Part shown: positions 7,921-30,762 of the stretch, piece after piece | How the letters are laid out: each line of letters begins with the position of its first letter | Numbering within the stretch: position 1 is the stretch's first letter | NCBI GenBank assembly: GCA_037783545.1 | Contig: JBBELK010001259.1 | Span: 186,001-250,000 of the forward strand | DNA: 64,000 nt | Reading direction: 5' to 3' | From: Henricia sp. BOLD:AAB3569 | Lineage: Eukaryota > Echinodermata > Asteroidea > Spinulosida > Echinasteridae | The notes under the pieces: generated by a model | Database searches by the model: none | What the model was told of the DNA's origin: nothing | What the model saw: the letters and a program-made list of their open reading frames with translations, nothing else | Program-made: the position numbers and the translations under genes

Positions 7921-10900
7921 GTGCGCAATATAGAGTGTTTGGAGCATGCAAAATTTGAAGTTCGTCGGAAAATTTTTCGACCTCCAAATTTGCCGACGTT
8001 TGAACCACACTTTGACCAAATTGCCGTGCCAAACTGGGGTGCGTCAACGACAGTCCGAAGGACTGAGCATGCGCACGAGTCAGGAGTACACCAAAGAGGT
8101 GTGTACAGACAGCCACGGGTTGCGTGAGCAGTCAGGAAGCTCCAACCCAGTTTTCCCTAAACTTTGAAATTTCTCTGCCATTTCCCGGCGAAAGTCTGTC
8201 AATTTTTTAGGACAAGTGCGCAATATAGAGTGTTTGGAGCATGCAAAATTTGAAGTTCGTCGGAAAATTTTTCGACCTCCAAATTTGCCGACGTTTGAAC
8301 CACACTTTGACCAAATTGCCGTGCCAAACTGGGGTGCGTCAACGACAGTCCGAAGGACTGAGCAGCATGCGCACGAGTCAGGAGTACACCAAAGAGGTGT
8401 GTACAGACAGCCACGGGTTGCGTGAGCAGTCAGGAAGCTCCAACCCAGTTTTCCCTAAACTTTGAAATTTCTCTGCCATTTTCCGGCGAAAGTCTGTCAT
8501 TTTTTTAGGACAAGTGCGCAATATAGAGTGTTTGGAGCATGCAAAATTTGAAGTTCGTCGGAAAATTTTTCGACCTCCGAATTTGCCGACGTTTGAACCA
8601 CACTTTGACCAAATTGCCGTGCCAAACTGGGGTGCGTCAACGACAGTCCGAAGGACTGAGCATGCGCACGAGTCAGGAGTACACCAAAGAGGTGTGTACA
8701 GACAGCCACGGGTTGCGTGAGCAGTCAGGAAGCTCCAACCCAGTTTTCCCTAAACTTTGAAATTTCTCTGCCATTTCCCGGCGAAAGTCTGTCAAGTTTG
8801 TAGGACTAGTGCGCAATATAGAGTGTTTGGAGCATGCAAAATTTGAAGTTCGTCGGAAAATTTTTCGACCTCCGAATTTGCCGACGTTTGAACCACACTT
8901 TGACCAAATTGCCGTGCCAAACTGGGGTGCGTCAACGACAGTCCGAAGGACTGAGCATGCTCACGAGTCAGGAGTACACCAAAGAGGTGTGTACAGACAG
9001 CCACGGGTTGCGTGAGCAGTCAGGAAGCTCCAACCCAGTTTTCCCTAAACTTTGAAATTTCTCTGCCATTTCCCGGCGAAAGTCTGTCAATTTTGTAGGA
9101 CTAGTGCGCAATATAGAGTGTTTGGAGCATGCAAAATTTGAAGTTCGTCGGAAAATTTTTCGACCTCCAAATTTGCCGACGTTTGAACCACACTTTGACC
9201 AAATTGCCGTGCCAAACTGGGGTGCGTCAACGACAGTCCGAAGGACTGAGCATGCGCACGAGTCAGGAGTACACCAAAGAGGTGTGTACAGACAGCCACG
9301 GGTTGCGTGAGCAGTCAGGAAGCTCCAACCCAGTTTTCCCTAAACTTTGAAATTTCTCTGCCATTTCCCGGCGAAAGTCTGTCAATTTTTTAGGACAAGT
9401 GCGCAATATAGAGTGTTTGGAGCATGCAATTTTGAAGTTCGTCGGAAAATTTTTCGACCTCCAAATTTGCCGACGTTTGAACCACACTTTGACCAAATTG
9501 CCGTGGCAAACTGGGGTGCGTCAACGACAGTCCGAAGGACTGAGCATGCGCACGAGTCAGGAGTACACCAAAGAGGTGTGTACAGACAGCCACGGGTTGC
9601 GTGAGCAGTCAGGAAGCTCCAACCCAGTTTTCCCTAAACTTTGAAATTTCTCTGCCATTTCCCGGCGAAAGTCTGTCATTTTTTTAGGACAAGTGCGCAA
9701 TATAGAGTGTTTGGAGCATGCAAAATTTGAAGTTCGTCGGAAAATTTTTCGACCTCCGAATTTGCCGACGTTTGAACCACACTTTGACCAAATTGCCGTG
9801 CCAAACTGGGGTGCGTCAACGACAGTCCGAAGGACTGAGCAGCATGCGCACGAGTCAGGAGTACACCAAAGAGGTGTGTACAGACAGCCACGGGTTGCGT
9901 GAGCAGTCAGGAAGCTCCAACCCAGTTTTCCCTAAACTTTGAAATTTCTCTGCCATTTCCCGGCGAAAGTCTGTCAGTTTTGTAGGACTAGTGCGCAATA
10001 TAGAGTGTTTGGAGCATGCAAAATTTGAAGTTCGTCGGAAAATTTTTCGACCTCCGAATTTGCCGACGTTTGAACCACACTTTGACCAAATTGCCGTGCC
10101 AAACTGGGGTGCGTCAACGACAGTCCGAAGGACTGAGCATGCGCACGAGTCAGGAGTACACCAAAGAGGTGTGTACAGACAGCCACGGGTTGCGTGAGCA
10201 GTCAGGAAGCTCCAACCCAGTTTTCCCTAAACTTTGAAATTTCTCTGCCATTTCCCGGCGAAAGTCTGTCAATTTTGTAGGACTAGTGCGCAATATAGAG
10301 TGTTTGGAGCATGCAAAATTTGAAGTTCGTCGGAAAATTTTTCGACCTCCGAATTTGCCGACGTTTGAACCACACTTTGACCAAATTGCCGTGCCAAACT
10401 GGGGTGCGTCAACGACAGTCCGAAGGACTGAGCATGCGCACGAGTCAGGAGTACACCAAAGAGGTGTGTACAGACAGCCACGGGTTGCGTGAGCAGTCAG
10501 GAAGCTCCAACCCAGTTTTCCCTAAACTTTGAAATTTCTCTGCCATTTCCCGGCGAAAGTCTGTCAATTTTTTAGGACAAGTGCGCAATATAGAGTGTTT
10601 GGAACATGCAAAATTTGAAGTTCGTCGGAAAATTTTTCGACCTCCAAATTTGCCGACGTTTGAACCACACTTTGACCAAATTGCCGTGCCAAACTGGGGT
10701 GCGTCAACGACAGTCCGAAGGACTGAGCATGCGCACGAGTCAGGAGTACACCAAAGAGGTGTGTACAGACAGCCACGGGTTGCGTGAGCAGTCAGGAAGC
10801 TCCAACCCAGTTTTCCCTAAACTGTGAAATTTCTCTGCCATTTCCCGGCGAAAGTCTGTCAATTTTTTAGGACAAGTGCGCAATATAGAGTGTTTGGAGC

Positions 10901-12161
10901 ATGCAATTTTGAAGTTCGTCGGAAAATTTTTCGACCTCCAAATTTGCCGACGTTTGAACCACTCTTTGACCAAATTGCCGTGGCAAACTGGGGTGCGTCA
11001 ACGACAGTCCGAAGGACTGAGCATGCGCACGAGTCAGGAGTACACCAAAGAGGTGTGTACAGACAGCCACGGGTTGCGTGAGCAGTCAGGAAGCTCCAAC
11101 CCAGTTTTCCCTAAACTTTGAAATTTCTCTGCCATTTCCCGGCGAAAGTCTGTCAATTTTTTAGGACAAGTGCGCAATATAGAGTGTTTGGAGCATGCAA
11201 TTTTGAAGTTCGTCGGAAAAATTTTCGACCTCCAAATTTGCCGACGTTTGAACCACACTTTGACCAAATTGCCGTGGCAAACTGGGGTGCGTCAACGACA
11301 GTCCGAAGGACTGAGCATGCGCACGAGTCAGGAGTACACCAAAGAGGTGTGTACAGACAGCCACGGGTTGCGTGAGCAGTCAGGAAGCTCCAACCCAGTT
11401 TTCCCTAAACTTTGAAATTTCTCTGCCATTTCCCGGCGAAAGTCTGTCATTTTTTTAGGACAAGTGCGCAATATAGAGTGTTTGGAGCATGCAAAATTTG
11501 AAGTTCGTCGGAAAATTTTTCGACCTCCGAATTTGCCGACGTTTGAACCACACTTTGACCAAATTGCCGTGCCAAACTGGGGTGCGTCAACGACAGTCCG
11601 AAGGACTGAGCAGCATGCGCACGAGTCAGGAGTACACCAAAGAGGTGTGTACAGACAGCCACGGGTTGCGTGAGCAGTCAGGAAGCTCCAACCCAGTTTT
11701 CCCTAAACTTTGAAATTTCTCTGCCATTTTCCGGCGAAAGTCTGTCATTTTTTTAGGACAAGTGCGCAATATAGAGTGTTTGGAGCATGCAAAATTTGAA
11801 GTTCGTCGGAAAATTTTTCGACCTCCGAATTTGCCGACGTTTGAACCACACTTTGACCAAATTGCCGTGCCAAACTGGGGTGCGTCAACGACAGTCCGAA
11901 GGACTGAGCATGCGCACGAGTCAGGAGTACACCCAAGAGGTGTGTACAGACAGCCACGGGTTGCGTGAGCAGTCAGGAAGCTCCAACCCAGTTTTCCCTA
12001 AACTTTGAAATTTCTCTGCCATTTCCCGGCGAAAGTCTGTCAATTTTGTAGGACTAGTGCGCAATATAGAGTGTTTGGAGCATGCAAAATTTGAAGTTCG
12101 TCGAAAAATTTTTCGACCTCCGAATTTGCCGACGTTTGAACCACACTTTGACCAAATTGCC

Positions 12162-12403
12162 TTTTTCTAAAATGTTTTATTTTTCCAAATAAAACACACT
12201 AAGTTACATATTTACAATTTAACCAAATCTAAATAAAATGTACATTTTTTTAAAAAGTGTAACTTTCACTTTAACGAAAACGTCACAATTCAAAAACCAT
12301 ACACATGTTAAAACGTTATATTGAAGGTGGGCAAGACCGCACCCGGCCAAGAAGAACTTGAGAAAACGGTTTGAGAAATCTACGGGCCCCGACATGGGTT
12401 TCG
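12162..12403 (-). other. LINE 3' untranslated region and tail
   Basis: On the minus strand this follows the ORF2 stop codon. It holds no open frame of note. The last 40 bp or so (12162-12201) match the end of the 636-703 bp non-autonomous element. The remainder shows no similarity to it or to the satellite. Confidence 0.85.
12173..12196 (-). promoter_or_regulatory. 3'-terminal stem-loop of the LINE, with embedded AATAAA
   Basis: Minus-strand TGTTTTATTT, a four-base loop GGAA, then AAATAAAACA forms a perfect 10 bp stem. It lies 11 bases from the inserted 3' end. The 3' arm contains the polyadenylation hexamer AATAAA. The same stem-loop is found in the non-autonomous element with a C-G instead of a T-A loop-closing pair. 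In other LINE/SINE pairs a shared 3' structure is the site bound by the reverse transcriptase, and I infer the same role here. Confidence 0.7.
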
Positions 12404-15400
12404 TTAAACAAAATAACGAACTTTATGCAAAATAAGATCTGTTGAAATATTACCTTTCCTAGCAAACTTTACGTCATTCCGGCACTTCCAAACAACATAA
12501 CGAAAGTAACTTAAAACTTTAAGGATACGTAATTCTGCAGACTTTGCAGGTGAACCAAAAAGAGAAAAAACGAGATTATCCATGTCGGGGAGGGTGTAGC
12601 GCTTCGTGATGTTACCCAGGTAACGGCTGAGCCACTCCCCCACCGGTCTGACCACGCGACACTCGGTGAACAAGTGACGCGTGGACTCAAAGGTTCCACA
12701 GTGTGGACAAAGCCCTGGAGCGCCGAAAATTCGATTCAAAAACTGACCGGTGGGAAGCACTCTGTGCATAATTCGAAAGTTCAAAGAAACCTGATAATTT
12801 GGCAAATTCTTGCACAGAGCGCGTTGCCATACAGTGGCCCAGTCTTTACCGGGTTTTTTACGCTGCACCCTGGGAATGATCTTTTGGAATTCCACAATGT
12901 CTGCATATAACTGTGCCATCTTCAGGTCCCCCCAATTAGTAACCAAATGTTTGTATTTTCTGAACGAAATCAAGACAGTATCGTAAAAGGGGGAACGAGA
13001 AAAGCAGTGCGGTATGCTGTTGACGGCCAAGTGGGGGGCAATGTCCCGGAGGGACAGCCCACACCAATAGGAAGCGAGAACTTTCCACTTGGCCGCCCGT
13101 TCAGAAATTAAGTCTTTTATATGCAGACATTGGAGCGCGACTATTCTACTTTCCAGGTCAATGACTCCAAGGCCTCCTTTGGAGGGTGGCAGGTGCATGG
13201 TTTTCCGGTTGACATATTCTGTTGATTGGCCCCAAATAAATCCAAAAATAATACGATTAATCTTTGAAATTATATTCTTCCCCGGTGGATGGATTTCGGC
13301 TAGATACCATAACTGAGATAATATATATTGATTGATGACAGTGACCTTACCCTTTAGGGTTAAGTAACTGTCATCCCATTCTCCAATTGTTTTCCTGAGT
13401 TTAATTATTTTCTCCTCCCAAATGTTGTCTTTGTGTTCTCCGTACCCGAGTTCCACCCCAACGACTTTCACGGAATTTACCCAATTGATGTCAACCGGAC
13501 CATGCATCTGACCTCGCCATCGGCCTAGATAAACGCCACCCGTTTTCCTTTGGTTTAGCTTGGCCCCGGACGCGCGCTCGTATCTCTCGATCAGCCGAAA
13601 GCTTCGGGCGACCGAGCGCTCGTCCGACAAGATCAACGTGGTATCATCGGCGTACATGGACATTTTGGCTTCGGTCCCACCCGGCATTTTAACCCCGTGA
13701 ATATTAACATCGTTACGGATCGCTGCCGCCAAAGGCTCTAAAGAAAGAATGTACAAGAGGGGCGACAGGGGACATCCCTGTCGCACACCCCGAAATAAAG
13801 GAAAGGAATCCGAAACATGCCCGTTGCAAATAACTGAACTTTGAATATCTTTATACAATATTCCCACCCACTTTTTGAAATTGTCACCGAAGCCAAAGGT
13901 ATCCAAAACACGCCGAAGATATTCCCAGTCAACCCTGTCGAACGCCTTCTGCTGATCGAGAGACACGAAAATAGCGCCCAGGTTTTTCTGGTCGACGTAA
14001 CTCTGAACGTTTCGAAGGAGATGGGCGTTGTCCGATATGGACCGACCGACTACGGAGCAGGTCTGATCGATATCGATGATTCGATCGAGAACACCCCGCA
14101 GTCGGTTAGCAAGCACCTTGGCAATTAACTTGTAATCAACGTTAAGCAGAGAAATCGGTCGCCAATTACCCAGATCCCCCCTCTCCCCCTTATTCTTGTA
14201 CAGCAAAGTAATCAACCCCAATCTTTGTGAATCTGTGAGAACCCCATTATTAAAAATTTCGTTAATCAAGTCGCAAAGGTCAGAACCCAAATCATCAAAA
14301 AAATGTTTATAAAAATCAGCAGAAAAACCGTCGGAGCCAGGTGTTTTGCCAGTGCCCATATCGAACAATGCCCGTCTCAATTCAAGAAGAGTGACCGGAC
14401 ACTCGAGAGAGTCACGGTCCTCTGAACTTAAATGTCTGTTAACAGAATTACAAAAGAAATCTACGTCATTGTGGCTAATTAAAGGTGCTGAATATAAGTC
14501 TGAATAAAATTCTTTGCAGTGGTTGGTCATATCCTTAGAGTTAGAAATTATATTGCCGTGTTTGTCTTTTAAATTATCCATGCGTTTTAAATCATCATTG
14601 TTATTTAAATCAAAATTAATCGTTTCACCGGGAACCTTGGGACGTTTGTGCTGAAAAGAACTGAAATTTGGCTGGTTTTTCTCTAATTGTGTCAACTTAA
14701 AACGAATATCTTTAACTTTAACACCATATGAAGCGTCACCTTTATCTAAATTACATTGATAATCATTTAGTTTACGTAATAGGTCTTTACGTTCAGAGTT
14801 ACGTCGACGCGCTAAACCGACGGAAAAAGAAATTGCCGCTCGTTTTAGGCCCGATTTCCCCTCCTCCCACCAGTCACTTAAATTTCGAAATTCCCCTTTT
14901 TGCGTTCGCCAAAAATCCCACTCCCTTTTAATAGTGTCTTGAAACAAAACATTTCCCAAAAGACTAGAATTCAATTTCCAAAACCCCTTTCCAATGTTTG
15001 AAATCCCCCCCATTATTTTAGTGCATACCATGTCGTGGTCGGACCACGGAAAAGCGGCAATTTCACTAAGGGAACCCACCGACAACTCCCGCGATAGATA
15101 AATACGGTCGATTCTTGTCCCTTGGTTTTGTGCACTATTGTGCCAGGTGAAACGCTGCTGGTCGGGGTTTTGCTCCCGCCAGCAGTCTACTAAATTAAAA
15201 TTTGCAACTGATTTATTAAATTCCTTTATACCGGATTTTCCAAGAACAGAATCTCCCTTCGAATCTATGGCAGGTTCTGGAACACAATTAAAATCTCCCC
15301 CCAAAATAACATGACGAAAGCCGTGAAAATGGTGTGGCAACTCAGTTGAAAAAAAGGATTTTCTTTCCCCCCGGTCATTGGGGGCATAGACATTAATGAT

Positions 15401-15724
15401 ACGAACCTTTTTATCAGTGTTTGGTAAAGTAATTGTAAGGGACAAAATTCGACCGTTGTCATCCCGGAAGAGGTCCGTGGGTTTCCACGAGTGGCGCTTT
15501 GAAAGCAAAATAGCCACACCTCTACTGGAACTATTCCCAAAACACCAAAACCCTTTACCGTCGAATTCCCGGGTCCACGATCTGGCTTCGTGGAAACCAG
15601 ATGCGTGGGTCTCCTGCAACAGTAGAATATCGGTATTCTTGCCGTTGCACGAGCCGAAAATTCGACGGCGCTTATCATGATTTCTCAAACCGTTAACATT
15701 CACACTGGAAATTAAAAATTCCAT
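12404..15724 (-). CDS. LINE ORF2 protein: APE-type endonuclease and reverse transcriptase
   Basis: This 1106-residue protein nicks target DNA and copies the element RNA at the nick (target-primed reverse transcription). The N-terminal exonuclease-endonuclease-phosphatase domain (about 1-240) has the expected sites in order: NVNG (N9), LLLQETH (E38), NVYAPN (Y113), GGDFN (D144, N146), FTWHN, RIDRIY (D206) and SDHDMV (D229, H230). The reverse transcriptase core (about 480-770) has NWRPISLLNVDYK, SLDQQKAFDRVD (D589), RGVRQGCPLSP and YADD (691-694). A C-terminal knuckle C1006-X2-C-X7-H1017-X4-C1022 is typical of L1/Tx1-type proteins. No RNase H follows. The start ATG at 15724 directly precedes the endonuclease, 36 bp after the ORF1 stop and in the same frame, with stop codons between. 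The length is full for the family, and no stop or frameshift is seen. Satellite target preference would reside in the endonuclease, by analogy with site-specific Tx1-like elements. Confidence 0.95.
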   Translation of the reverse strand: MEFLISSVNVNGLRNHDKRRRIFGSCNGKNTDILLLQETHASGFHEARSWTREFDGKGFWCFGNSSSRGVAILLSKRHSWKPTDLFRDDNGRILSLTITLPNTDKKVRIINVYAPNDRGERKSFFSTELPHHFHGFRHVILGGDFNCVPEPAIDSKGDSVLGKSGIKEFNKSVANFNLVDCWREQNPDQQRFTWHNSAQNQGTRIDRIYLSRELSVGSLSEIAAFPWSDHDMVCTKIMGGISNIGKGFWKLNSSLLGNVLFQDTIKREWDFWRTQKGEFRNLSDWWEEGKSGLKRAAISFSVGLARRRNSERKDLLRKLNDYQCNLDKGDASYGVKVKDIRFKLTQLEKNQPNFSSFQHKRPKVPGETINFDLNNNDDLKRMDNLKDKHGNIISNSKDMTNHCKEFYSDLYSAPLISHNDVDFFCNSVNRHLSSEDRDSLECPVTLLELRRALFDMGTGKTPGSDGFSADFYKHFFDDLGSDLCDLINEIFNNGVLTDSQRLGLITLLYKNKGERGDLGNWRPISLLNVDYKLIAKVLANRLRGVLDRIIDIDQTCSVVGRSISDNAHLLRNVQSYVDQKNLGAIFVSLDQQKAFDRVDWEYLRRVLDTFGFGDNFKKWVGILYKDIQSSVICNGHVSDSFPLFRGVRQGCPLSPLLYILSLEPLAAAIRNDVNIHGVKMPGGTEAKMSMYADDTTLILSDERSVARSFRLIERYERASGAKLNQRKTGGVYLGRWRGQMHGPVDINWVNSVKVVGVELGYGEHKDNIWEEKIIKLRKTIGEWDDSYLTLKGKVTVINQYILSQLWYLAEIHPPGKNIISKINRIIFGFIWGQSTEYVNRKTMHLPPSKGGLGVIDLESRIVALQCLHIKDLISERAAKWKVLASYWCGLSLRDIAPHLAVNSIPHCFSRSPFYDTVLISFRKYKHLVTNWGDLKMAQLYADIVEFQKIIPRVQRKKPGKDWATVWQRALCKNLPNYQVSLNFRIMHRVLPTGQFLNRIFGAPGLCPHCGTFESTRHLFTECRVVRPVGEWLSRYLGNITKRYTLPDMDNLVFSLFGSPAKSAELRILKVLSYFRYVVWKCRNDVKFARKGNISTDLILHKVRYFV

Positions 15725-15760
15725 TATTTATAGGATTTGTTAAAAACCCCAAACCAATTC

Positions 15761-17113
15761 TCATTTCTTCTTGGCCTTACGGCAGTTCTTTTTGGTTTCC
15801 CACACACCACCCTGCTGTTCGTCAGACGACGACCGCCCCCGCTTGCTTGAAATCATTGAGACGACTGAGTCCTTGTCCGAGTCCGTGGACTCCCGCTCCG
15901 ACAACGGGGTCTCGTTGATGACAAGAGGCCCCGAAGTTATAATTGAGTCCATTTCATCCAAAAGTACTTCAAACATAGACCGTTCCGCCCAGGAACGCGT
16001 TGCGTCTGCCTTGTTTATTCCTTTCCTGGGCGGACGCGGTCCTTTTGCCGGAGCAGGAGTCGGGGCGGGTGCCAATGGCGGGGGCGGTGCAGGCTTGGTT
16101 GGTGGTGGGGCCTTGGGTGCGGTCTTGCCGGGTGGTGAAGAGGGAGCTGTCCGGCCAGGCAGGGCCGCGCCTCGTCCCATGTTTGGTTTTCCCACAGGAG
16201 TGTTCTTGCGTGGAACTGGACGGGGCGCGGATTTTTGTCCCGGTGCAGCGGCTGATGGAGGACCGGCGTTCTGTGGTCCCGGGGTACGTTCCGCGCTGGT
16301 TCCTGCGGGTTTTGGTTGCGGAGCATTGCTCGGTCCAGCGCGTTGCGGTCCCGGGGCAGGCACGGTGCGGGCTGCCGGTGTTGGGGTTGTGGTGGGGGTC
16401 GGGGTGGTGGGGGTCGGGGTGTCGGCGGTATCCTCGGAGTCGGTGTCTGAATGAATGCTTACATTGTCTCTGTGCTGGATGTTATTGCCGACTCTCTGCG
16501 CCCAGGTCTGTTGGTGTCGAGGCGGCTTCGGGCAAATGTTGCTGCGGTGCCCAGCTTCACCGCAATTATAGCAGCGAATCTGGACACAAAAAGCCGCCTT
16601 ATGCCCGGGCGCTCCACACCGCCGGCAGGTCTCTACTTGGCCGTTGTAACGTACCTTTAATTGGTAACCCCCGACCCACACGTACGACGGGATGGCCTTG
16701 TCGACATGCATGCGGATATGCCGCATGCCGTTTTCCCACGTTGGATGCAATACCCAGTGTCCCCGTCGTACTCCCAACACCGTACCGTACTGTCCAAGAA
16801 GTGTGATAATAGGCCGATCCTCCATTTCGTAGGGTGCGTAGCTAACGGTAACGTAGTCTACTGGTCGCTGCACCGGGCTGGCGTTAAACCTGACATTCCC
16901 CGCGGCAAGTTGAGTTTCCAGGATCTTCTTCCTCCCGGCGGCGGTCCTCGGCGTCACAAGCCATCGCAGGTCTCCGAGTTGTTGAAGGCACTTGATCTCG
17001 CCGTCGGGAAGGGTAGACGCAATGGTTCGGCAGACATCCTGGTAGTTCAACTTGCTGGGCAGGTCCAAAGTCACAGTCAGCTCCCTCTTCAGGTTAGAAT
17101 TAGCGTCGTTCAT
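15761..17113 (-). CDS. LINE ORF1 protein: CCHC zinc-knuckle nucleic-acid-binding protein
   Basis: This 450-residue protein probably packages element RNA. Residues about 8-160 form a globular region of mixed strand/helix character that I do not assign to a named fold with certainty. It may be RRM-like, as in other Tx1-type ORF1 proteins. Two retroviral-type knuckles follow, C163-X2-C-X4-H-X4-C176 and C181-X2-C-X4-H-X4-C194. Next comes a low-complexity Thr/Pro/Ala-rich stretch (about 225-365), then a basic C-terminus ending in KAKKK. The ATG at 17113 is the first in frame and lies about 17 bp from the element's 5' boundary. The first stop is 36 bp before ORF2, so ORF2 is probably translated by re-initiation or a similar route. 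GC-rich antisense frames across the Pro-rich part are shadows. Confidence 0.9.
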   Translation of the reverse strand: MNDANSNLKRELTVTLDLPSKLNYQDVCRTIASTLPDGEIKCLQQLGDLRWLVTPRTAAGRKKILETQLAAGNVRFNASPVQRPVDYVTVSYAPYEMEDRPIITLLGQYGTVLGVRRGHWVLHPTWENGMRHIRMHVDKAIPSYVWVGGYQLKVRYNGQVETCRRCGAPGHKAAFCVQIRCYNCGEAGHRSNICPKPPRHQQTWAQRVGNNIQHRDNVSIHSDTDSEDTADTPTPTTPTPTTTPTPAARTVPAPGPQRAGPSNAPQPKPAGTSAERTPGPQNAGPPSAAAPGQKSAPRPVPRKNTPVGKPNMGRGAALPGRTAPSSPPGKTAPKAPPPTKPAPPPPLAPAPTPAPAKGPRPPRKGINKADATRSWAERSMFEVLLDEMDSIITSGPLVINETPLSERESTDSDKDSVVSMISSKRGRSSSDEQQGGVWETKKNCRKAKKK

Positions 17114-17317
17114 GGTTCACGGCACAAGTCCCAAACTGGGGTGCGTCAACGACAGTCCGAAGGACTGAGCATGCGCACGAGTCAGGAGTACACCAAAGAG
17201 GTGTGTACAGACAGCCACGGGTTGCGTGAGCAGTCAGGAAGCTCCAACCCAGTTTTCCCTAAACTTTGAAATTTCTCTGCCATTTCCCGGCGAAAGTCTG
17301 TCAATTTTGTAGGACTA

Positions 17318-20271
17318 GTGCGCAATATAGAGTGTTTGGAGCATGCAAAATTTGAAGTTCGTCGGAAAATTTTTCGACCTCCGAATTTGCCGACGTTTGA
17401 ACCACACTTTGACCAAATTGCCGTGCCAAACTGGGGTGCGTCAACGACAGTCCGAAGGACTGAGCATGCGCACGAGTCAGGAGTACACCAAAGAGGTGTG
17501 TACAGACAGCCACGGGTTGCGTGAGCAGTCAGGAAGCTCCAACCCAGTTTTCCCTAAACTTTGAAATTTCTCTGCCATTTCCCGGCGAAAGTCTGTCAAT
17601 TTTTTAGGACAAGTGCGCAATATAGAGTGTTTGGAGCATGCAAAATTTGAAGTTCGTCGGAAAATTTTTCGACCTCCAAATTTGCCGACGTTTGAACCAC
17701 ACTTTGACCAAATTGCCGTGCCAAACTGGGGTGCGTCAACGACAGTCCGAAGGACTGAGCATGCGGACGAGTCAGGAGTACACCAAAGAGGTGTGTACAG
17801 ACAGCCACGGGTTGCGTGAGCAGTCAGGAAGCTCCAACCCAGTTTTCCCTAAACTTTGAAATTTCTCTGCCATTTCCCGGCGAAAGTCTGTCAATTTTTT
17901 AGGACAAGTGCGCAATATAGAGTGTTTGGAGCATGCAATTTTGAAGTTCGTCGGAAAATTTTTCGACCTCCAAATTTGCCGACGTTTGAACCACACTTTG
18001 ACCAAATTGCCGTGGCAAACTGGGGTGCGTCAACGACAGTCCGAAGGACTGAGCATGCGCACGAGTCAGGAGTACACCAAAGAGGTGTGTACAGACAGCC
18101 ACGGGTTGCGTGAGCAGTCAGGAAGCTCCAACCCAGTTTTCCCTAAACTTTGAAATTTCTCTGCCATTTCCCGGCGAAAGTCTGTCATTTTTTTAGGACA
18201 AGTGCGCAATATAGAGTGTTTGGAGCATGCAAAATTTGAAGTTCGTCGGAAAAGTTTTCGACCTCCGAATTTGCCGACGTTTGAACCACACTTTGACCAA
18301 ATTGCCGTGCCAAACTGGGGTGCGTCAACGACAGTCCGAAGGACTGAGCAGCATGCGCACGAGTCAGGAGTACACCAAAGAGGTGTGTACAGACAGCCAC
18401 GGATTGCGTGAGCAGTCAGGAAGCTCCAACCCAGTTTTCCCTAAACTTTGAAATTTCTCTGCCATTTTCCGGCGAAAGTCTGTCATTTTTTTAGGACAAG
18501 TGCGCAATATAGATTGTTTGGAGCATGCAAAATTTGAAGTTCGTCGGAAAATTTTTCGACCTCCGAATTTGCCGACGTTTGAACCACACTTTGACCAAAT
18601 TGCCGTGCCAAACTGGGGTGCGTCAACGACAGTCCGAAGGACTGAGCATGCGCACGAGTCAGGAGTATACCAAAGAGGTGTGTACAGACAGCCACGGGTT
18701 GCGTGAGCAGTCAGGAAGCTCCAACCCAGTTTTCCCTAAACTTTGAAATTTCTCTGCCATTTCCCGGCGAAAGTCTGTCAATTTTGTAGGACTAGTGCGC
18801 AATATAGAGTGTTTGGAGCATGCAAAATTTGAAGTTCGTCGGAAAATTTTTCGACCTCCGAATTTGCCGACGTTTGAACCACACTTTGACCAAATTGCCG
18901 TGCCAAACTGGGGTGCGTCAACGACAGTCCGAAGGACTGAGCATGCGCACGAGTCAGGAGTACACCAAAGAGGTGTGTACAGACAGCCACGGGTTGCGTG
19001 AGCAGTCAGGAAGCTCCAACCCAGTTTTCCCTAAACTTTGAAATTTCTCTGCCATTTCCCGGCGAAAGTCTGTCAATTTTTTAGGACAAGTGCGCAATAT
19101 AGAGTGTTTGGAGCATGCAAAATTTGAAGTTCGTCGGAAAATTTTTCGACCTCCAAATTTGCCGACGTTTGAACCACACTTTGACCAAATTGCCGTGCCA
19201 AACTGGGGTGCGTCAACGACAGTCCGAAGGACTGAGCATGCGGACGAGTCAGGAGTACACCAAAGAGGTGTGTACAGACAGCCACGGGTTGCGTGAGCAG
19301 TCAGGAAGCTCCAACCCAGTTTTCCCTAAACTTTGAAATTTCTCTGCCATTTCCCGGCGAAAGTCTGTCAATTTTTTAGGACAAGTGCGCAATATAGAGT
19401 GTTTGGAGCATGCAATTTTGAAGTTCGTCGGAAAATTTTTCGACCTCCAAATTTGCCGACGTTTGAACCACACTTTGACCAAATTGCCGTGGCAAACTGG
19501 GGTGCGTCAACGACAGTCCGAAGGACTGAGCATGCGCACGAGTCAGGAGTACACCAAAGAGGTGTGTACAGACAGCCACGGGTTGCGTGAGCAGTCAGGA
19601 AGCTCCAACCCAGTTTTCCCTAAACTTTGAAATTTCTCTGCCATTTCCCGGCGAAAGTCTGTCATTTTTTTAGGACAAGTGCGCAATATAGAGTGTTTGG
19701 AGCATGCAAAATTTGAAGTTCGTCGGAAAAGTTTTCGACCTCCGAATTTGCCGACGTTTGAACCACACTTTGACCAAATTGCCGTGCCAAACTGGGGTGC
19801 GTCAACGACAGTCCGAAGGACTGAGCAGCATGCGCACGAGTCAGGAGTACACCAAAGAGGTGTGTACAGACAGCCACGGGTTGCGTGAGCAGTCAGGAAG
19901 CTCCAACCCAGTTTTCCCTAAACTTTGAAATTTCTCTGCCATTTTCCGGCGAAAGTCTGTCATTTTTTTAGGACAAGTGCGCAATATAGATTGTTTGGAG
20001 CATGCAAAATTTGAAGTTCGTCGGAAAATTTTTCGACCTCCGAATTTGCCGACGTTTGAACCACACTTTGACCAAATTGCCGTGCCAAACTGGGGTGCGT
20101 CAACGACAGTCCGAAGGACTGAGCATGCGCACGAGTCAGGAGTATACCAAAGAGGTGTGTACAGACAGCCACGGGTTGCGTGAGCAGTCAGGAAGCTCCA
20201 ACCCAGTTTTCCCTAAACTTTGAAATTTCTCTGCCATTTCCCGGCGAAAGTCTGTCAATGTTTTAGGACAA
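17318..20271. repeat. Higher-order repeat, 1477 bp five-mer, two copies
   Basis: Units at 17318, 17613, 17908, 18202 and 18500 recur at 18795, 19090, 19385, 19679 and 19977. Shared variants include TTTTGTAGGACTAG, CATGCGGACGAG, CATGCAATTTTG, GGAAAAGTTTTCG and GAGTATACC. Related unit orders occur left of the LINE (from about 9104), so the LINE lies inside an already amplified block. Confidence 0.92.
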
Positions 20272-21432
20272 ATGCGCAATATAGAGTGTTTGGAGCATGC
20301 AAAATTTTTCGACTTCCAAATTTGCCGACGTTTGAACCACACTTTGACCAAATTGCCGTGCCAAACTGGGGTGCGTCAACGACAGTCCGAAGGACTGAGC
20401 ATGCGCACGAGTCAGGAGTACACCAAAGAGGTGTGTACAGACAGCCACGGGTTGCGTGAGCAGTCAGGAAGCTCCAACCCAGTTTTCCCTAAACTTTGAA
20501 ATTTCTCTGCCATTTCCCGGCGAAAGTCTGTCAATTTTTTAGGACAAGTGCGCAATATAGAGTGTTTGGAGCATGCAAAATTTGAAGTTCGTCGGAAAAT
20601 TTTTCGACCTCCAAATTTGCCGACGTTTGAACCACACTTTGACCAAATTGCCGTGCCAAACTGGGGTGCGTCAACGACAGTCCGAAGGACTGAGCATGCG
20701 CACGAGTCAGGAGTACACCAAAGAGGTGTGTACAGACAGCCACGGGTTGCGTGAGCAGTCAGGAAGCTCCAACCCAGTTTTCCCTAAACTTTGAAATTTC
20801 TCTGCCATTTCCCGGCGAAAGTCTGTCAATTTTTTAGGACTAGTGCGCAATATAGAGTGTTTGGAGCATGCAAAATTTGAAGTTCGTCGGAAAATTTTTC
20901 GACCTCCAAATTTGCCGACGTTTGAACCACACTTTGACCAAATTGCCGTGCCAAACTGGGGTGCGTCAACGACAGTCCGAAGGACTGAGCATGCGCACGA
21001 GTCAGGAGTACACCAAAGAGGTGTGTACAGACAGCCACGGGTTGCGTGAGCAGTCAGGAAGCTCCAACCCAGTTTTCCCTAAACTTTGAAATTTCTCTGC
21101 CATTTCCCGGCGAAAGTCTGTCAATTTTTTAGGACAAGTGCGCAATATAGAGTGTTTGGAGCATGCAAAATTTGAAGTTCGTCGGAAAATTTTTCGACCT
21201 CCAAATTTGCCGACGTTTGAACCACACTTTGACCAAATTGCCGTGCCAAACTGGGGTGCGTCAACGACAGTCCGAAGGACTGAGCATGCGCACGAGTCAG
21301 GAGTACACCAAAGAGGTGTGTACAGACAGCCACGGGTTGCGTGAGCAGTCAGGAAGCTCCAACCCAGTTTTCCCTAAACTTTGAAATTTCTCTGCCATTT
21401 CCCGGCGAAAGTCTGTCAATTTTTTAGGACAA

Positions 21433-24400
21433 GTGCGCAATATAGAGTGTTTGGAGCATGCAAAATTTGAAGTTCGTCGGAAAATTTGTCGACCTCCAAA
21501 TTTGCCGACGTTTGAACCACACTTTGACCAAATTGCCGTGCCAAACTGGGGTGCGTCAACGACAGTCCGAAGGACTGAGCAGCATGCGCACGAGTCAGGA
21601 GTACACCAAAGAGGTGTGTACAGACAGCCACGGGTTGCGTGAGCAGTCAGGAAGCTCCAACCCAGTTTTCCCTAAACTTTGAAATTTCTCTGCCATTTTC
21701 CGGCGAAAGTCTGTCATTTTTTTAGGACAAGTGCGCAATATAGAGTGTTTGGAGCATGCAAAATTTGAAGTTCGTCGGAAAATGTTTCGACCTCCGAATT
21801 TGCCGACGTTTGAACCACACTTTGACCAAATTGCCGTGCCAAACTGGGGTGCGTCAACGACAGTCCGAAGGACTGAGCATGCGCACGAGTCAGGAGTGCA
21901 CCAAAGAGGTGTGTACAGACAGCCACGGGTTGCGTGAGCAGTCAGGAAGCTCCAACCCAGTTTTCCCTAAACTTTGAAATTTCTCTGCCATTTCCCGGCG
22001 AAAGTCTGTCATTTTTTTAGGACAAGTGCGCAATATAGAGTGTTTGGAGCATGCAAAATTTGAAGTTCGTCGGAAAATATTTCGACCTCCGAATTTGCCG
22101 ACGTTTGAACCACACTTTGACCAAATTGCCGTGCAAAACTGGGGTGCGTCAACGACAGTCCGAAGGACTGAGCATGCGCACGAGTCAGGAGTACACCAAA
22201 GAGGTGTGTACAGACAGCCACGGGTTGCGTGAGCAGTCAGGAAGCTCCAACCCAGTTTTCCCTAAACTTTGAAATTTCTCTGCCATTTTCCGGCGAAAGT
22301 CTGTCATTTTTTTTAGGACAAGTGCGCAATATAGAGTGTTTGGAGCATGCAAAATTTGAAGTTCGTCGGAAAATTTTTCAACCTCCAAATTTGCCGACGT
22401 TTGAACCACACTTTGACCAAATTGCCGTGCCAAACTGGGGTGCGTCAACGACAGTCCGAAGGACTGAGCATGCGCACGAGTCAGGAGTACACCAAAGAGG
22501 TGTGTACAGACAGCCACGGGTTGCGTGAGCAGTCAGGAAGCTCCAACCCAGTTTTCCCTAAACTTTGAAATTTCTCTGCCATTTCCCGGCGAAAGTCTGT
22601 CAATTTTTTAGGACTAGTGCGCAATATAGAGTGTTTGGAGCATGCAAAATTTGAAGTTCGTCGGAAAATTTTTCGACCTCCAAATTTGCCGACGTTTGAA
22701 CCACACTTTGACCAAATTGCCGTGCCAAACTGGGGTGCGTCAACGACAGTCCGAAGGACTGAGCATGCGCACGAGTCAGGAGTACACCAAAGAGGTGTGT
22801 ACAGACAGCCACGGGTTGCGTGAGCAGTCAGGAAGCTCCAACCCAGTTTTCCCTAAACTTTGAAATTTCTCTGCCACTTCCCGGCGAAAGTCTGTCATTT
22901 TTTTTAGGACAAGTGCGCAATATAGAGTGTTTGGAGCATGCAAAATTTGAAGTTCGTCGGAAAATTTTTCGACCTCCGAATTTGCCGACGTTTGAACCAC
23001 ACTTTGACCAAATTGCCGTGCCAAACTGGGGTGCGTCAACGACAGTCCGAAGGACTGAGCATGCGCACGAGTCAGGAGTACACCAAAGAGGTGTGTACAG
23101 ACAGCCACGGGTTGCGTGAGCAGTCAGGAAGCTCCAACCCAGTTTTCCCTAAACTTTGAAATTTCTCTGCCATTTCCCGGCGAAAGTCTGTCAATTTTTT
23201 AGGACTAGTGCGCAATATAGAGTGTTTGGAGCATGCAAAATTTGAAGTTCGTCGGAAAATTTTTCGACCTCCAAATTTGCCGACGTTTGAACCACACTTT
23301 GACCAAATTGCCGTGCCAAACTGGGGTGCGTCAACGACAGTCCGAAGGACTGAGCAGCGTGCGCACGAGTCAGGAGTACACCAAAGAGGTGTGTACAGAC
23401 AGCCACGGGTTGCGTGAGCAGTCAGGAAGCTCCAACCCAGTTTTCCCTAAACTTTGAAATTTCTCTGCCATTTTCCGGCGAAAGTCTGTCATTTTTTTTA
23501 GGACAAGTGCGCAATATAGAGTGTTTGGAGCATGCAACATTTTTCGACCTCCGAATTTGCCGACGTTTGAACCACACTTTGACCAAATTGCCGTGCCAAA
23601 CTGGGGTGCGTCTACGACAGTCCGAAGGACTGAGCATGCGCACGAGTCAGGAGTACACCAAAGAGGTGTGTACAGACAGCCACGGGTTGCGTGAGCAGTC
23701 AGGAAGCTCCAACCCAGTTTTCCCTAAACTTTGAAATTTCTCTGCCATTTCCCGGCGAAAGTCTGTCAATTTTTTAGGACTAGTGCGCAATATAGAGTGT
23801 TTGGAGCATGCAAAATTTGAAGTTCGTCGGAAAATTTGTCGACCTCCAAATTTGCCGACGTTTGAACCACACTTTGACCAAATTGCCGTGCCAAACTGGG
23901 GTGCGTCAACGACAGTCCGAAGGACTGAGCAGCATGCGCACGAGTCAGGAGTACACCAAAGAGGTGTGTACAGACAGCCACGGGTTGCGTGAGCAGTCAG
24001 GAAGCTCCAACCCAGTTTTCCCTAAACTTTGAAATTTCTCTGCCATTTTCCGGCGAAAGTCTGTCATTTTTTTAGGACAAGTGCGCAATATAGAGTGTTT
24101 GGAGCATGCAAAATTTGAAGTTCGTCGGAAAATTTTTCGACCTCCGAATTTGCCGACGTTTGAACCACACTTTGACCAAATTGCCGTGCCAAACTGGGGT
24201 GCGTCAACGACAGTCCGAAGGACTGAGCATGCGCACGAGTCAGGAGTGCACCAAAGAGGTGTGTACAGACAGCCACGGGTTGCGTGAGCAGTCAGGAAGC
24301 TCCAACCCAGTTTTCCCTAAACTTTGAAATTTCTCTGCCATTTCCCGGCGAAAGTCTGTCATTTTTTTAGGACAAGTGCGCAATATAGAGTGTTTGGAGC

Positions 24401-26132
24401 ATGCAAAATTTGAAGTTCGTCGGAAAATATTTCGACCTCCGAATTTGCCGACGTTTGAACCACACTTTGACCAAATTGCCGTGCAAAACTGGGGTGCGTC
24501 AACGACAGTCCGAAGGACTGAGCATGCGCACGAGTCAGGAGTACACCAAAGAGGTGTGTACAGACAGCCACGGGTTGCGTGAGCAGTCAGGAAGCTCCAA
24601 CCCAGTTTTCCCTAAACTTTGAAATTTCTCTGCCATTTTCCGGCGAAAGTCTGTCATTTTTTTTAGGACAAGTGCGCAATATAGAGTGTTTGGAGCATGC
24701 AAAATTTGAAGTTCGTCGGAAAATTTTTCAACCTCCAAATTTGCCGACGTTTGAACCACACTTTGACCAAATTGCCGTGCCAAACTGGGGTGCGTCAACG
24801 ACAGTCCGAAGGACTGAGCATGCGCACGAGTCAGGAGTACACCAAAGAGGTGTGTACAGACAGCCACGGGTTGCGTGAGCAGTCAGGAAGCTCCAACCCA
24901 GTTTTCCCTAAACTTTGAAATTTCTCTGCCATTTCCCGGCGAAAGTCTGTCAATTTTTTAGGACTAGTGCGCAATATAGAGTGTTTGGAGCATGCAAAAT
25001 TTGAAGTTCGTCGGAAAATTTTTCGACCTCCAAATTTGCCGACGTTTGAACCACACTTTGACCAAATTGCCGTGCCAAACTGGGGTGCGTCAACGACAGT
25101 CCGAAGGACTGAGCATGCGCACGAGTCAGGAGTACACCAAAGAGGTGTGTACAGACAGCCACGGGTTGCGTGAGCAGTCAGGAAGCTCCAACCCAGTTTT
25201 CCCTAAACTTTGAAATTTCTCTGCCACTTCCCGGCGAAAGTCTGTCATTTTTTTTAGGACAAGTGCGCAATATAGAGTGTTTGGAGCATGCAAAATTTGA
25301 AGTTCGTCGGAAAATTTTTCGACCTCCGAATTTGCCGACGTTTGAACCACACTTTGACCAAATTGCCGTGCCAAACTGGGGTGCGTCAACGACAGTCCGA
25401 AGGACTGAGCATGCGCACGAGTCAGGAGTACACCAAAGAGGTGTGTACAGACAGCCACGGGTTGCGTGAGCAGTCAGGAAGCTCCAACCCAGTTTTCCCT
25501 AAACTTTGAAATTTCTCTGCCATTTCCCGGCGAAAGTCTGTCAATTTTTTAGGACTAGTGCGCAATATAGAGTGTTTGGAGCATGCAAAATTTGAAGTTC
25601 GTCGGAAAATTTTTCGACCTCCAAATTTGCCGACGTTTGAACCACACTTTGACCAAATTGCCGTGCCAAACTGGGGTGCGTCAACGACAGTCCGAAGGAC
25701 TGAGCAGCGTGCGCACGAGTCAGGAGTACACCAAAGAGGTGTGTACAGACAGCCACGGGTTGCGTGAGCAGTCAGGAAGCTCCAACCCAGTTTTCCCTAA
25801 ACTTTGAAATTTCTCTGCCATTTTCCGGCGAAAGTCTGTCATTTTTTTTAGGACAAGTGCGCAATATAGAGTGTTTGGAGCATGCAACATTTTTCGACCT
25901 CCGAATTTGCCGACGTTTGAACCACACTTTGACCAAATTGCCGTGCCAAACTGGGGTGCGTCTACGACAGTCCGAAGGACTGAGCATGCGCACGAGTCAG
26001 GAGTACACCAAAGAGGTGTGTACAGACAGCCACGGGTTGCGTGAGCAGTCAGGAAGCTCCAACCCAGTTTTCCCTAAACTTTGAAATTTCTCTGCCATTT
26101 CCCGGCGAAAGTCTGTCAATTTTTTAGGACTA
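21433..26132. repeat. Higher-order repeat, 2350 bp eight-mer, two copies
   Basis: Eight units from 21433 recur from 23783. Shared variants are AATTTGTCGACC, CAGGAGTGCACC, AAAATATTTCG with GTGCAAAACTG, TTTTTCAACCTCC, CTGCCACTTCCC, CAGCGTGCGCAC, and the deleted unit CATGCAACATTTTTCG with GCGTCTACGAC. A rare difference (AATGTTTCG near 21780 against AATTTTTCG near 24130) marks later change. Confidence 0.93.
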
Positions 26133-26722
26133 GTGCGCAATATAGAGTGTTTGGAGCATGCAAAATTTGAAGTTCGTCGGAAAAATCTTCGACTTCCAAA
26201 TTTGCCGACGTTTGAACCACACTTTGACCAAATTGCCGTGCAAAACTGGGGTGCGTCAACGACAGTCCGAAGGACTGAGCATGCGCACGAGTCAGGAGTA
26301 CACCAAAGAGTTGTGTACAGACAGCCACGGGTTGCGTGAGCAGTCAGGAAGCTCCAACCCAGTTTTCCCTAAACTTTGAAATTTCTCTGCCATTTCCCGG
26401 CGAAAGTCTGTCAATTTTTTAGGACAAGTGCGCAATATAGAGTGTTTGGAGCATGCAAAATTTGAAGTTCGTCGGAAAATTTTTCGACCTCCAAAATTGC
26501 CGACGTTTGAACCACACTTTGACCAAATTGCCGTGCCAAACTGGGGTGCGTCAACGACAGTCCGAAGGACTGAGCATGCGCACGAGTCAGGAGTACACCA
26601 AAGAGGTGTGTACAGACAGCCACGGGTTGCGTGAGCAGTCAGGAAGCTCCAACCCAGTTTTCCCTAAACTTTGAAATTTCTCTGCCATTTCCCGGCGAAA
26701 GTCTGTCAATTTTTTAGGACAA

Positions 26723-27908
26723 GTGCGCAATATAGAGTGTTTGGAGCATGCAAAATTTGAAGTTCGTCGGAAAATTTTTCGACTTCCAAATTTGCCGACG
26801 TTTGAACCACACTTTGACAAAATTGCCGTGCCAAACTGGGGTGCGTCAACGACAGTCCGAAGGACTGAGCATGCGCACGAGTCAGGAGTACACCAAAGAG
26901 GTGTGTACAGACAGCCACGGGTTGCGTGAGCAGTCAGGAAGCTCCAACCCAGTTTTCCCTAAACTTTGAAATTTCTCTGCCATTTCCGGGCGAAAGTCTG
27001 TCAATTTTTTAGGACAAGTGCGCAATATAGAGTGTTTGGAGCATGCAAAATTTGAAGTTCGTCGGAAAATTTTTCGACCTCCAAATTTGCCGACGTTTGA
27101 ACCACACTTTGACCAAATTGCCGTGCCAAACTGGGGTGCGTCAACGACAGTCTGAAGGACTGAGCAGCATGCGCACGAGTCAGGAGTACACCAAAGAGGT
27201 GTGTACAGACAGCCACGGGTTGCGTGAGCAGTCAGGAAGCTTCAACCCAGTTTTCCCTAAACTTTGAAATTTCTCTGCCATTTCCCGGCGAAAGTCTGTC
27301 AATTTTTTAGGACAAGTGCGCAATATAGAGTGTTTGGAGCATGCAAAATTTGAAGTTCGTCGGAAAATTTTTCGACTTCCAAATTTGCCGACGTTTGAAC
27401 CACACTTTGACAAAATTGCCGTGCCAAACTGGGGTGCGTCAACGACAGTCCGAAGGACTGAGCATGCGCACGAGTCAGGAGTACACCAAAGAGGTGTGTA
27501 CAGACAGCCACGGGTTGCGTGAGCAGTCAGGAAGCTCCAACCCAGTTTTCCCTAAACTTTGAAATGTCTCTGCCATTTCCCGGCGAAAGTCTGTCAATTT
27601 TTTAGGACAAGTGCGCAATATAGAGTGTTTGGAGCATGCAAAATTTGAAGTTCGTCGGAAAATTTTTCGACCTCCAAATTTGCCGACGTTTGAACCACAC
27701 TTTGACCAAATTGCCGTGCCAAACTGGGGTGCGTCAACGACAGTCTGAAGGACTGAGCAGCATGCGCACGAGTCAGGAGTACACCAAAGAGGTGTGTACA
27801 GACAGCCACGGGTTGCGTGAGCAGTCAGGAAGCTCCAACCCAGTTTTCCCTAAACTTTGAAATTTCTCTGCCATTTTCCGGCGAAAGTCTGTCATTTTTT
27901 TAGGACAA
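26723..27908. repeat. Higher-order repeat, 593 bp dimer, two copies
   Basis: Units at 26723 (TCGACTTCC, TTGACAAAATTG) and 27018 (AGTCTGAAGG with CAGCATGCG) recur at 27316 and 27611. The same pair appears once more, diverged, at 28499-28797 in reversed order of first occurrence. Confidence 0.85.
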
Positions 27909-29082
27909 GTGCGCAATATAGAGTGTTTGGAGCATGCAAAATTTGAAGTTCGTCGGAAAATTTTTCGACCTCCAAATTTGCCGACGTTTGAACCACACTT
28001 TGACCAAATTGCCGTGGCAAACTGGGGTGCGTCAACGACAGTCCGAAGGACTGAGCATGCGCACGAGTCAGGAGTACACCAAAGAGGTGTGTACAGACAG
28101 CCACGGGTTGCGTGAGCAGTCAGGAAGCTCCAACCCAGTTTTCCCTAAACTTTAAAATTTCTCTGCCATTTCCCGGCGAAAGTCTGTTAATTTTTTAGGA
28201 CAAGTGCGCAATATAGAGTGTTTGGAGCATGCAAAATTTGAAGTTCGTCGGAAAATTTTTCGACCTCCGAATTTGCCGACGTTTGAACCACACTTTGACC
28301 AAATTGCCGTGCCAAACTGGGGTGCGTCAACGACAGTCCGAAGGACTGAGCATGCGCACGAGTCAGGAGTACACCAAAGACGTGTGTACAGACAGCCACG
28401 GGTTGCGTGAGCAGTCAGGAAGCTCCAACCCAGTTTTCCCTAAACTTTGAAATTTCCCTGCCATTTCCCGGCGAAAGTCTGTCAATTTTTTAGGACAAGT
28501 GCGCAATATAGAGTGTTTGGAGCATGCAAAATTTGAAGTTCGTCGGAAAATTTTTCGACCTCCAAATTTGCCGACGTTTGAACCACACTTTGACCAAATT
28601 GCCGTGCCAAACTGGGGTGCGTCAACGACAGTCTGAAGGACTGAGCAGCATGCGCACGAGTCAGGAGTACACCAAAGAGGTGTGTACAGACAGCCACGGG
28701 TTGCGTGAGCAGTCAGGAAGCTCCAACCCAGTTTTCCCTAAACTTTGAAATTTCTCTGCCATTTCCCGGCGAAAGTCTGTCAATTTTTTAGGACAAGTGC
28801 GCAATATAGAGTGTTTGGAGCATGCAAAATTTGAAGTTCGTCGGAAAATTTTTCGACTTCCAAATTTGCCGACGTTTGAACCACACTTTGACAAAATTGC
28901 CGTGCCAAACTGGGGTGCGTCAACGACAGTCCGAAGGACTGAGCATGCGCACGAGTCAGGAGTACACCAAAGAGGTGTGTACAGTTAGCCACGGGTTGCG
29001 TGAGCAGTCAGGAAGCTCCAACCCAGTTTTCCCTAAACTTTGAAATTTCTCTGCCATTTCCCGGCGAAAGTCTGTCAATTTG

Positions 29083-29166
29083 CGTGAGCAGTCAGGAAGC
29101 TCCAACCCAGTTTTCCCTAAACTTTGAAATTTCTCTGCCATTTCCCGGCGAAAGTCTGTCAATTTT
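29083..29166. repeat. 84 bp partial-unit duplication
   Basis: At about 29080 the text GTCTGTCAATT jumps back to TGCGTGAGCAGTCAGG, repeating the segment up to GTCTGTCAATTTTTTAGG. The interval between neighbouring unit starts becomes 379 bp (295 + 84). A short shared TTTGCGT/TTGCGT context at the joint suggests slippage or unequal exchange out of register. Confidence 0.85.
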
Positions 29167-29575
29167 TTAGGACAAGTGCGCAATATAGAGTGTTTGGAGC
29201 ATGCAAAATTTGAAGTTCGTCGGAAAATTTTTCGACCTCCAAATTTGCCGACGTTTGAACCACACTTTGACCAAATTGCCGTGGCAAACTGGGGTGCGTC
29301 AACGACAGTCCGAAGGACTGAGCATGCGCACGAGTCAGGAGTACACCAAAGAGGTGTGTACAGACAGCCACGGGTTGCGTGAGCAGTCAGGAAGCTCCAA
29401 CCCAGTTTTCCCTAAACTTTGAAATTTCTCTGCCATTTCCCGGCGAAAGTCTGTCATTTTTTTAGGACAAGTGCGCAATATAGAGTGTTTGGAGCATGCA
29501 AAATTTGAAGTTCGTCGGAAAATTTTTCGACCTCCGAATTTGCCGACGTTTGAACCACACTTTGACCAAATTGCC

Positions 29576-30211
29576 TTTTTCTAAAATGTTTTATTCGTCC
29601 GAATAAAACACGCTAACCAGTCCAACGTTGTTACCGATAGAACCAGTGCTTCAGCCGTTGTCGTTGCCAGTCCAGGTCATTTATCCACTAAACGTTCGCC
29701 GTTATTGCCAAATTTCCTCATTCGTAGTCGTTGCCAGTCCAGGTCATTTATCCACTAAGCGTTCGCCGTTATTGCCAAATTTCCTCATTCGTAGTCGTTG
29801 CCAGTACAGGTCATTTATCCACCAAATTTCCTCATTCGTTGTCGTTGCCAATCCAGGTCATTATCCGGCGAGTATTCTCCATCACAATCATCACCAATCT
29901 TGGTCGATCGTGTCCGAGTATCAGGTCATATCCTTCGAGAAGCACCACAGGTACATCCTCATAAAACCACAATCGTCACCAGTCCAGGTCTGGAAGAATC
30001 AAGACCGCAGACTCGGATCCAATCGTGTTCCAAAATTGTATCGGCGTTCCCCGTGACGTACGTACTGGTCACTCCATCATTGAGCAACGTTCCAGGACAT
30101 CACGGGATTCCGCGAAAAACTCCTCCAAACTACCTATGTGCAAGGGTAGTCCTTTGGAAAGCGGTCATCACAGGCCAGCGAGGAAAGAACCCGTACGCCA
30201 ACCCGACCGCC
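29576..30211 (-). mobile_element. Non-autonomous satellite-inserted element, copy B (636 bp, short form)
   Basis: This is a complete element on the minus strand: tRNA-like head at the right (GGGGCGGTCGG, A-box-like TTGGCGTACGG), body with 67 bp repeats, and LINE-like tail at the left. It is 67 bp shorter than copies C-F because it has one 67 bp unit fewer. Satellite flanks are ...CCAAATTGCC at 29575 and CCAAACTGGGG from 30212, the same interruption point as the LINE with the same three bases (GTG) absent. The stem-loop TGTTTTATTC-GTCC-GAATAAAACA (plus strand) is at 29587-29610. It has no protein-coding capacity of its own. The B box of a tRNA promoter is not found. Confidence 0.9.
29587..29610 (-). 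promoter_or_regulatory. 3'-terminal stem-loop of the non-autonomous element
   Basis: A perfect 10 bp stem with a four-base loop has the same position and spacing to the end (TTTTAGAAAAA) as in the LINE. The loop-closing pair is C-G where the LINE has T-A, so both sides changed and pairing is kept. AATAAA lies in the 3' arm on the minus strand. Copy C has one mismatch (TTTTAATC); copies D-F are perfect. Confidence 0.7.
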
Positions 30212-30478
30212 CCAAACTGGGGTGCGTCAACGACAGTCCGAAGGACTGAGCATGCGCACGAGTCAGGAGTACACCAAAGAGGTGTGTACAGACAGCCACA
30301 GGTTGCGTGAGCAGTCAGGAAGCTCCAACCCAGTTTTCCCTAAACTTTGAAATTTCTCTGCCATTTCCCGGCGAAAGTCAGTCAATTTTTTAGGACTAGT
30401 GCGCAATATAGAGTGTTTGGAGCATGCAAAATTTGAAGTTCGTCGGAAAATTTTTCGACCTCCAAATTTGCCGACGTT

Positions 30479-30762
30479 GTTGTTGTTGTATATTTTATGG
30501 CATCTTCGGCAACTAAGGCCCTTTATGCCATCAACTATACGGTTTTAGCTTTAACTATACTATATATTATCAACTTGAGATGACGAAGAAGGAGTTGCAG
30601 TTTTAGAAGTGGGAGGAAAACCCCCAGAGAAATGCCCCAGGGGAAAACCCACGCGGTCAAGTAGGGACTGCAAACCCAATCCACATACACGCCCCGGATT
30701 CGAACCCGGGACCCCAGAGGTGAAAAGCGAGGAAAGAACCCGTACGCCAACCCGACCGCCCC
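30479..30762 (-). mobile_element. tRNA-derived SINE, copy 1 (minus strand, 284 bp)
   Basis: On the minus strand the SINE starts GGGGCGGTCGGGTTGG. It contains an A-box-like TTGGCGTACGG (30740-30750) and a canonical B box GGTTCGAATCC (30696-30706) in a T-arm context (CCCGGGTTCGAATCCGGGG), then a non-tRNA body, and ends in (AAC)n. It is flanked by a 13 bp target duplication ATTTGCCGACGTT at 30466-30478 and 30763-30775, proving insertion into a satellite unit. It would be transcribed by RNA polymerase III and needs an external LINE. Its tail differs from that of the LINE in this window, so another LINE is the likely partner. Confidence 0.93.

Follow-up and report, generated by a model that had tools for sequence, protein, structure and literature searches.

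A LINE and a tail-sharing SINE-like element at one base of a 295-bp satellite in the sea star Henricia sp.

A 64,000-nucleotide stretch of the genome of the sea star Henricia sp. BOLD:AAB3569 (contig JBBELK010001259.1, positions 186,001 to 250,000; hereafter the window) contains a tandem array of 295-bp satellite units that is interrupted by a long interspersed element (LINE) and by copies of a shorter element resembling a short interspersed element (SINE). Both are inserted at the same base of the unit, in the same orientation, and both end in a common tail. We read them as a site-specific LINE of the L1/Tx1 type and a SINE partner that both target the satellite, with a probability of about 0.75. 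That two independent insertions hit one base, one by the LINE and one by the partner that shares its tail, is well supported by the junctions, by the tail that both carry and by two control insertions, which occupy other positions of the unit.

Insertion site and common tail

All the satellite unit matches in the window (187) lie on the plus strand. Interruptions of the array are the LINE (4,969 bp, at 12162-17130), five shorter inserts with lengths of 636 or 703 bp (elements E1 to E5, Table 1) and some smaller ones. The two arms flanking the insertion site were counted as exact matches only, within the window. The left arm TTTGACCAAATTGCC was found 169 times and is followed in 163 cases by GTG (140), GAG (20) or ATG (3), while the remaining six copies enter TTTTTCTAAAATG (starting with TTT) at 12162, where the LINE lies, and at 29576, 41698, 45650, 48712 and 52665. 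The right arm was found 166 times and is directly preceded by element sequence in seven, once by the LINE (17132) and six times by short elements, the sixth of which (at 641) is a copy truncated by the start of the window (E0). All six element-entered left arms and all seven right arms identify the same bond and orientation, and for the LINE and the two elements computed (E1 and E3) the insertion falls after position 292 of the 295 in the unit. Within the window, the LINE (1/1) and all the element copies (6/6, five of them with both junctions) are located at this site. The exact-arm counts and the junctions agree with a previous sequence-only reading, which had placed the LINE and the 636- and 703-bp elements at an identical satellite base in one orientation. 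Its claim that GTG is missing at the insertions was also borne out, the unit restarting at CCAAACTG with three bases absent, and the host-unit variants of the LINE and of the elements differ as it had stated, except that E2 (41698) is preceded by a 298-bp variant.

The target bond AAATTGCC^GTG is not T-rich, and the only TTTTA of the satellite unit is found at a different place. Rfam gave no match anywhere in the window at gathering level, nor in the stretch 11860-19500 when relaxed to E=1, and on this basis a known RNA gene in the satellite unit was rejected. The end of the window (57801-64000) is a block of about 20 units of a distinct 297-bp variant, with GCGG and GTTAACG, in which GAG replaces GTG at the target.

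The last 41 bp of the elements are 90% identical to the LINE tail in E1, E3, E4 and E5 and 88% identical in E2. When the final 45 nt are folded, the LINE and E1 give the same 15-pair hairpin (z of -3.0 and -3.3, respectively), with 97.8% of the cells paired across three distinct sequences, and the hairpin is retained while the tails differ at several bases. Outside the 41-bp tail, BLAST comparison of the LINE with the elements gave only a chance-level match of 16 bp. At the other end, on the minus strand, the element opens with ~35 nt that match the beginning of a separate tRNA-SINE present in the window, and the body that follows is distinct and carries 67-bp tandem repeats (2.6 copies in E1, 3.5 in each of the other elements). 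Pattern matches with what we take to be the A and B box patterns found the A box and no B box in E0 to E5, and both boxes in the tRNA-SINE copies. That the element body contains a retropepsin-like remnant was considered and rejected, as two short frames of E1 had no Pfam match.

The tail and both junctions are common to the LINE and the element, and the array is rich in recombination, as seen in the variable left flanks of the elements. The SINE-like element could then have arisen within the array from a resident LINE copy, by internal replacement or gene conversion, inheriting its junctions from a single insertion. We regard this origin as very unlikely, given that in BLAST nothing beyond the tail resembles the LINE above the chance level, that the 5' end of the element is the exact start of the tRNA-SINE head, that the tails have diverged at several bases while preserving the hairpin and that the host-unit variants are different.

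The tRNA-SINE itself provides a control. The array holds two insertions of it, oppositely oriented and at unit positions 267 and 227 (Table 1), and its 3' end is a CAA-type repeat unlike the LINE tail. Therefore, other elements enter the array elsewhere and leave ordinary duplications. The LINE and its partner, by comparison, are inserted at a common base, with no short duplication.

The LINE and its proposed mode of insertion

Both ORFs (open reading frames) of the LINE are open, with a leader of 17 nt, a spacing of 36 nt between ORF1 and ORF2 and a 3' untranslated region of 242 bp. The G+C content differs markedly inside the element (12404-17113), being 59% in ORF1 and 44% in ORF2. The alignment of ORF1 to its relatives P0122 and P0123 begins at residue 8 of ORF1 and, on this ground, the copy is probably near full length. 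Furthermore, such a short leader suggests that transcription of the LINE may start within the satellite.

ORF2 carries the Pfam domains Exo_endo_phos and RVT_1, i.e. an endonuclease of the apurinic/apyrimidinic (APE) type and a reverse transcriptase. Among solved structures the closest is human L1 ORF2p (E=3e-84; the best R2 protein reached 8e-21), to which the endonuclease, the reverse transcriptase and the YADD motif all aligned. In seven aligned ORF2 relatives, YADD and the endonuclease SDH stretch are invariant, and we take these to be the catalytic residues. ORF2 was matched by 3382 of the 7984 scored candidates and, among the 120 matches listed, P0001 to P0006 are 52-57% identical to it and form with it one family with a support of 100/100, in a tree of 41 rows built from the window protein and its first 40 hits. 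Judged by these comparisons the LINE is a member of the wider L1 superfamily, and any placement in the Tx1 clade is putative. P0001 and P0002 are 60% identical to each other, and for both the longest contig given has 12,268 bases; should this be a single contig, two LINE families would lie near each other, perhaps in one common target.

A collection of viral contigs gave no matches to the satellite core, the empty site or the tail pattern, and no ORF2 relative was found in its 86 pattern matches. A collection of genome contigs contained three distant relatives of ORF2 (L001 to L003, 32-36% identity) within records of bacterial metagenome-assembled genomes, probably as eukaryotic contamination. 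In two of these, L001 and L003, Tandem Repeats Finder detected no tandem repeats.

The LINE would insert by target-primed reverse transcription, and always at this site within the 295-bp unit. Because of the orientation of the insertions and their constant A5 end, we infer that the LINE endonuclease makes a nick in the plus strand at AAATTGCC^GTG, and that the freed plus-strand 3' end primes the reverse transcription of an RNA whose terminus is the hairpin followed by UUUUAGAAAAA. The other strand would be cut three bases further on, with the loss of GTG and the restart of the unit at CCAAACTG. The SINE, with its probable tRNA-type head and its version of the LINE 3' tail, would be carried to the same site by the LINE protein, since the shared tail presumably recruits the same protein, and the specificity would extend beyond the window.

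Table 1 Features of the satellite array and its insertions (window positions)
Feature	Positions	Strand	Basis or remark
Array of 295-bp satellite units hosting the insertions	662..64000	+	Tandem Repeats Finder: period 295, 211.9 copies
LINE, 4,969 bp, 3' end at 12162	12162..17130	-	gap in unit matches; junctions
LINE ORF1, 450 aa, zinc knuckle (zf-CCHC)	15761..17113	-	relatives P0121-P0123
LINE ORF2, 1106 aa, APE-type endonuclease and reverse transcriptase	12404..15724	-	Pfam; human L1 ORF2p match
LINE 3' tail with hairpin, common to the SINE-like elements	12162..12202	-	41 bp at 88-90% identity; fold
LINE left junction	12159..12164	+	AAATTGCC^TTTTT
LINE right junction	17127..17134	+	unit restarts at CCAAACTG, GTG missing
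E0, element copy cut by window start	1..640	-	right flank is a GCGG/GTTAACG unit variant
E1, SINE-like element, 636 bp	29576..30211	-	
E2, SINE-like element, 703 bp	41698..42400	-	
E3, SINE-like element, 703 bp	45650..46352	-	
E4, SINE-like element, 703 bp	48712..49414	-	identical to E3
E5, SINE-like element, 703 bp	52665..53367	-	
67-bp repeats	29656-29826; 41778-42011; 45730-45963; 48792-49025; 52745-52978; 17-250		Tandem Repeats Finder
Control tRNA-SINE	30479..30763	-	recurs after each of E1-E5; 11-13 bp duplication
Second control tRNA-SINE, other orientation and position	54187..54465	+	~12 bp duplication CAAAATTTGAAG

Number of independent insertions

The sequence-only reading had taken the LINE and the elements as two apparently independent insertions, and this stands, with the correction that the elements from 29576 to 53367 are not independent of one another. 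Over 900 bp, the right flanks of E1 to E5 have an identity of 98.9-100% (99.6-99.9% in the comparisons with E5, over 819 bp) and the same tRNA-SINE insertion is found in the next unit downstream of each of them, which rules out six independent insertions. E3 equals E4, and the other pairs among E1 to E5 differ at 2-4 positions. Given the shared right flanks and the shared downstream tRNA-SINE, E1 to E5 are best read as a single insertion that was apparently amplified along with the array. Their left flanks are variable, therefore recombination has been at work. Just upstream of E1 (28996-29165) one satellite unit contains an 84-bp duplication with copies 100% identical. E0 shows 4-5 differences to the other elements across 571-638 positions and is perhaps a separate insertion, a third event, or else a recombinant. 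In its right flank (632-689) a 27-bp sequence is repeated in 2.1 copies, the second of which has an intact CGAGCCAAACTG; this is possibly a scar left by the insertion itself or by slippage at a later time. The window holds two surely independent events, the LINE and the SINE, and a third is possible.

Several points weigh against a site-specific pair. The surely independent events are only two, with E1 to E5 as one lineage, and they are seen through one window, so that insertions at other targets may exist. The longer fold of the tail (75-79 nt) is less striking than the short one, with z of -1.7 for the LINE, -2.9 for E1 and -1.8 for E2. The covariation of the hairpin comes down to one pair and adds little, since 159 of 500 shuffles reach the same. 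Finally, none of the elements has left and right unit types that match an intact neighbour pair, indicating that recombination has reworked the left flank.

With just two sure events in one window, it could be a coincidence that the array holds both at one base, the LINE and the SINE being only weakly targeted and having many copies elsewhere. We consider this unlikely. If the base (one of 295) and the orientation (one of two) were chosen uniformly, the chance for two events to agree on both would be 1/590, and neither insertion has a short duplication. Besides, the bond is not T-rich, unlike the TT/AAAA given for human L1 in the excerpted text of PMC13295347.

The loss of three bases at the target can also be described in another way, because in a tandem array it looks like the duplication of a 292-bp unit. 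If the second strand were cut at the same place in the neighbouring unit, each LINE insertion would gain a whole unit (292 bp). The LINE is indeed flanked on both sides by one unit type, with 2 differences in 291 bases, and this type occurs once in the local five-unit order. Both of these differences are private to the left unit. However, like neighbours are not rare, since among the 79 pairs of adjacent units to the left of 29285 there are 13, with the LINE pair among them, that show differences in at most three columns. Moreover, the unit at 10100 has the same sequence as the right unit, which resembles three other units more closely than it does the left one, and the two units flanking the SINE are of different types. 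A gain of units at insertion seems to us very unlikely, and the loss of GTG is the simplest reading. If units were gained nevertheless, the elements, a satellite-specific LINE and a SINE parasite that borrows its tail and its address, would help to build their own host array. Under the preferred reading, a LINE and a SINE partner with one target, a long satellite would offer a large and harmless niche, linking retrotransposon targeting to satellite turnover. The target site is short and abundant, which makes nicking and priming directly testable.

Comparison with known systems

Kibi and Koshi have microsatellites as targets, and SART1Bm belongs to the R1 clade and is of the APE type. The comparisons that follow draw on excerpts of the cited articles, in which RNA genes or short repeats are the targets of most of the site-specific LINEs described. 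Target-specific LINEs of the APE type occur in the Tx1 and R1 clades (PMC4640811, PMC13295347). Mutsu targets the 5S rRNA genes, Keno the U2 snRNA genes and Dewa a tRNA-Leu spacer (PMC3706591, PMC4640811). Like these Tx1-clade elements and Tx1 itself, the LINE has an APE-type endonuclease and, as far as the window shows, occupies one place in a multicopy target; their targets in the excerpts are RNA genes or a tRNA spacer, whereas the satellite of the window matched no Rfam family.

Tandem repeats as targets have precedents, and to this extent the sequence-only reading went too far in calling the insertion a new case. YURE elements of sea squirts are also inserted in satellite repeats (U2_sat; PMC4640811). 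As far as the excerpt goes, YURE are relatives of Utopia/NeSL, of the group with a restriction-like endonuclease, and show an occasional preference for a satellite derived from U2, while the ORF2 of the window is of the APE type and Rfam revealed no RNA-gene origin for its satellite. SART1Bm of the silkworm similarly targets a tandem repeat, in this case the short telomeric repeat TTAGG (PMC7265360) instead of a 295-bp satellite unit. The particular combination, a satellite-targeting LINE of the L1/Tx1 type with a SINE partner, was not found in the open-access literature searched, and its novelty is unproven.

The sharing of a 3' tail with a stem-loop resembles the stringent LINE/SINE pairs of eel UnaL2 and zebrafish ZfL2, in which the LINE protein recognises the stem-loop of the tail (PMC4176376, PMC3747384). 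In the excerpted texts UnaL2 and ZfL2 are members of the L2 clade, for which the dependence on the 3' stem-loop has been demonstrated (PMC4176376), and the LINE described here is assigned to the L1 superfamily, where SINEs with a shared tail are rare, with three reported against more than 800 LINEs (PMC3747384). If the pair proposed here is real, a SINE with the same tail and the same target base as its LINE would mean that the address follows the protein and not the RNA.

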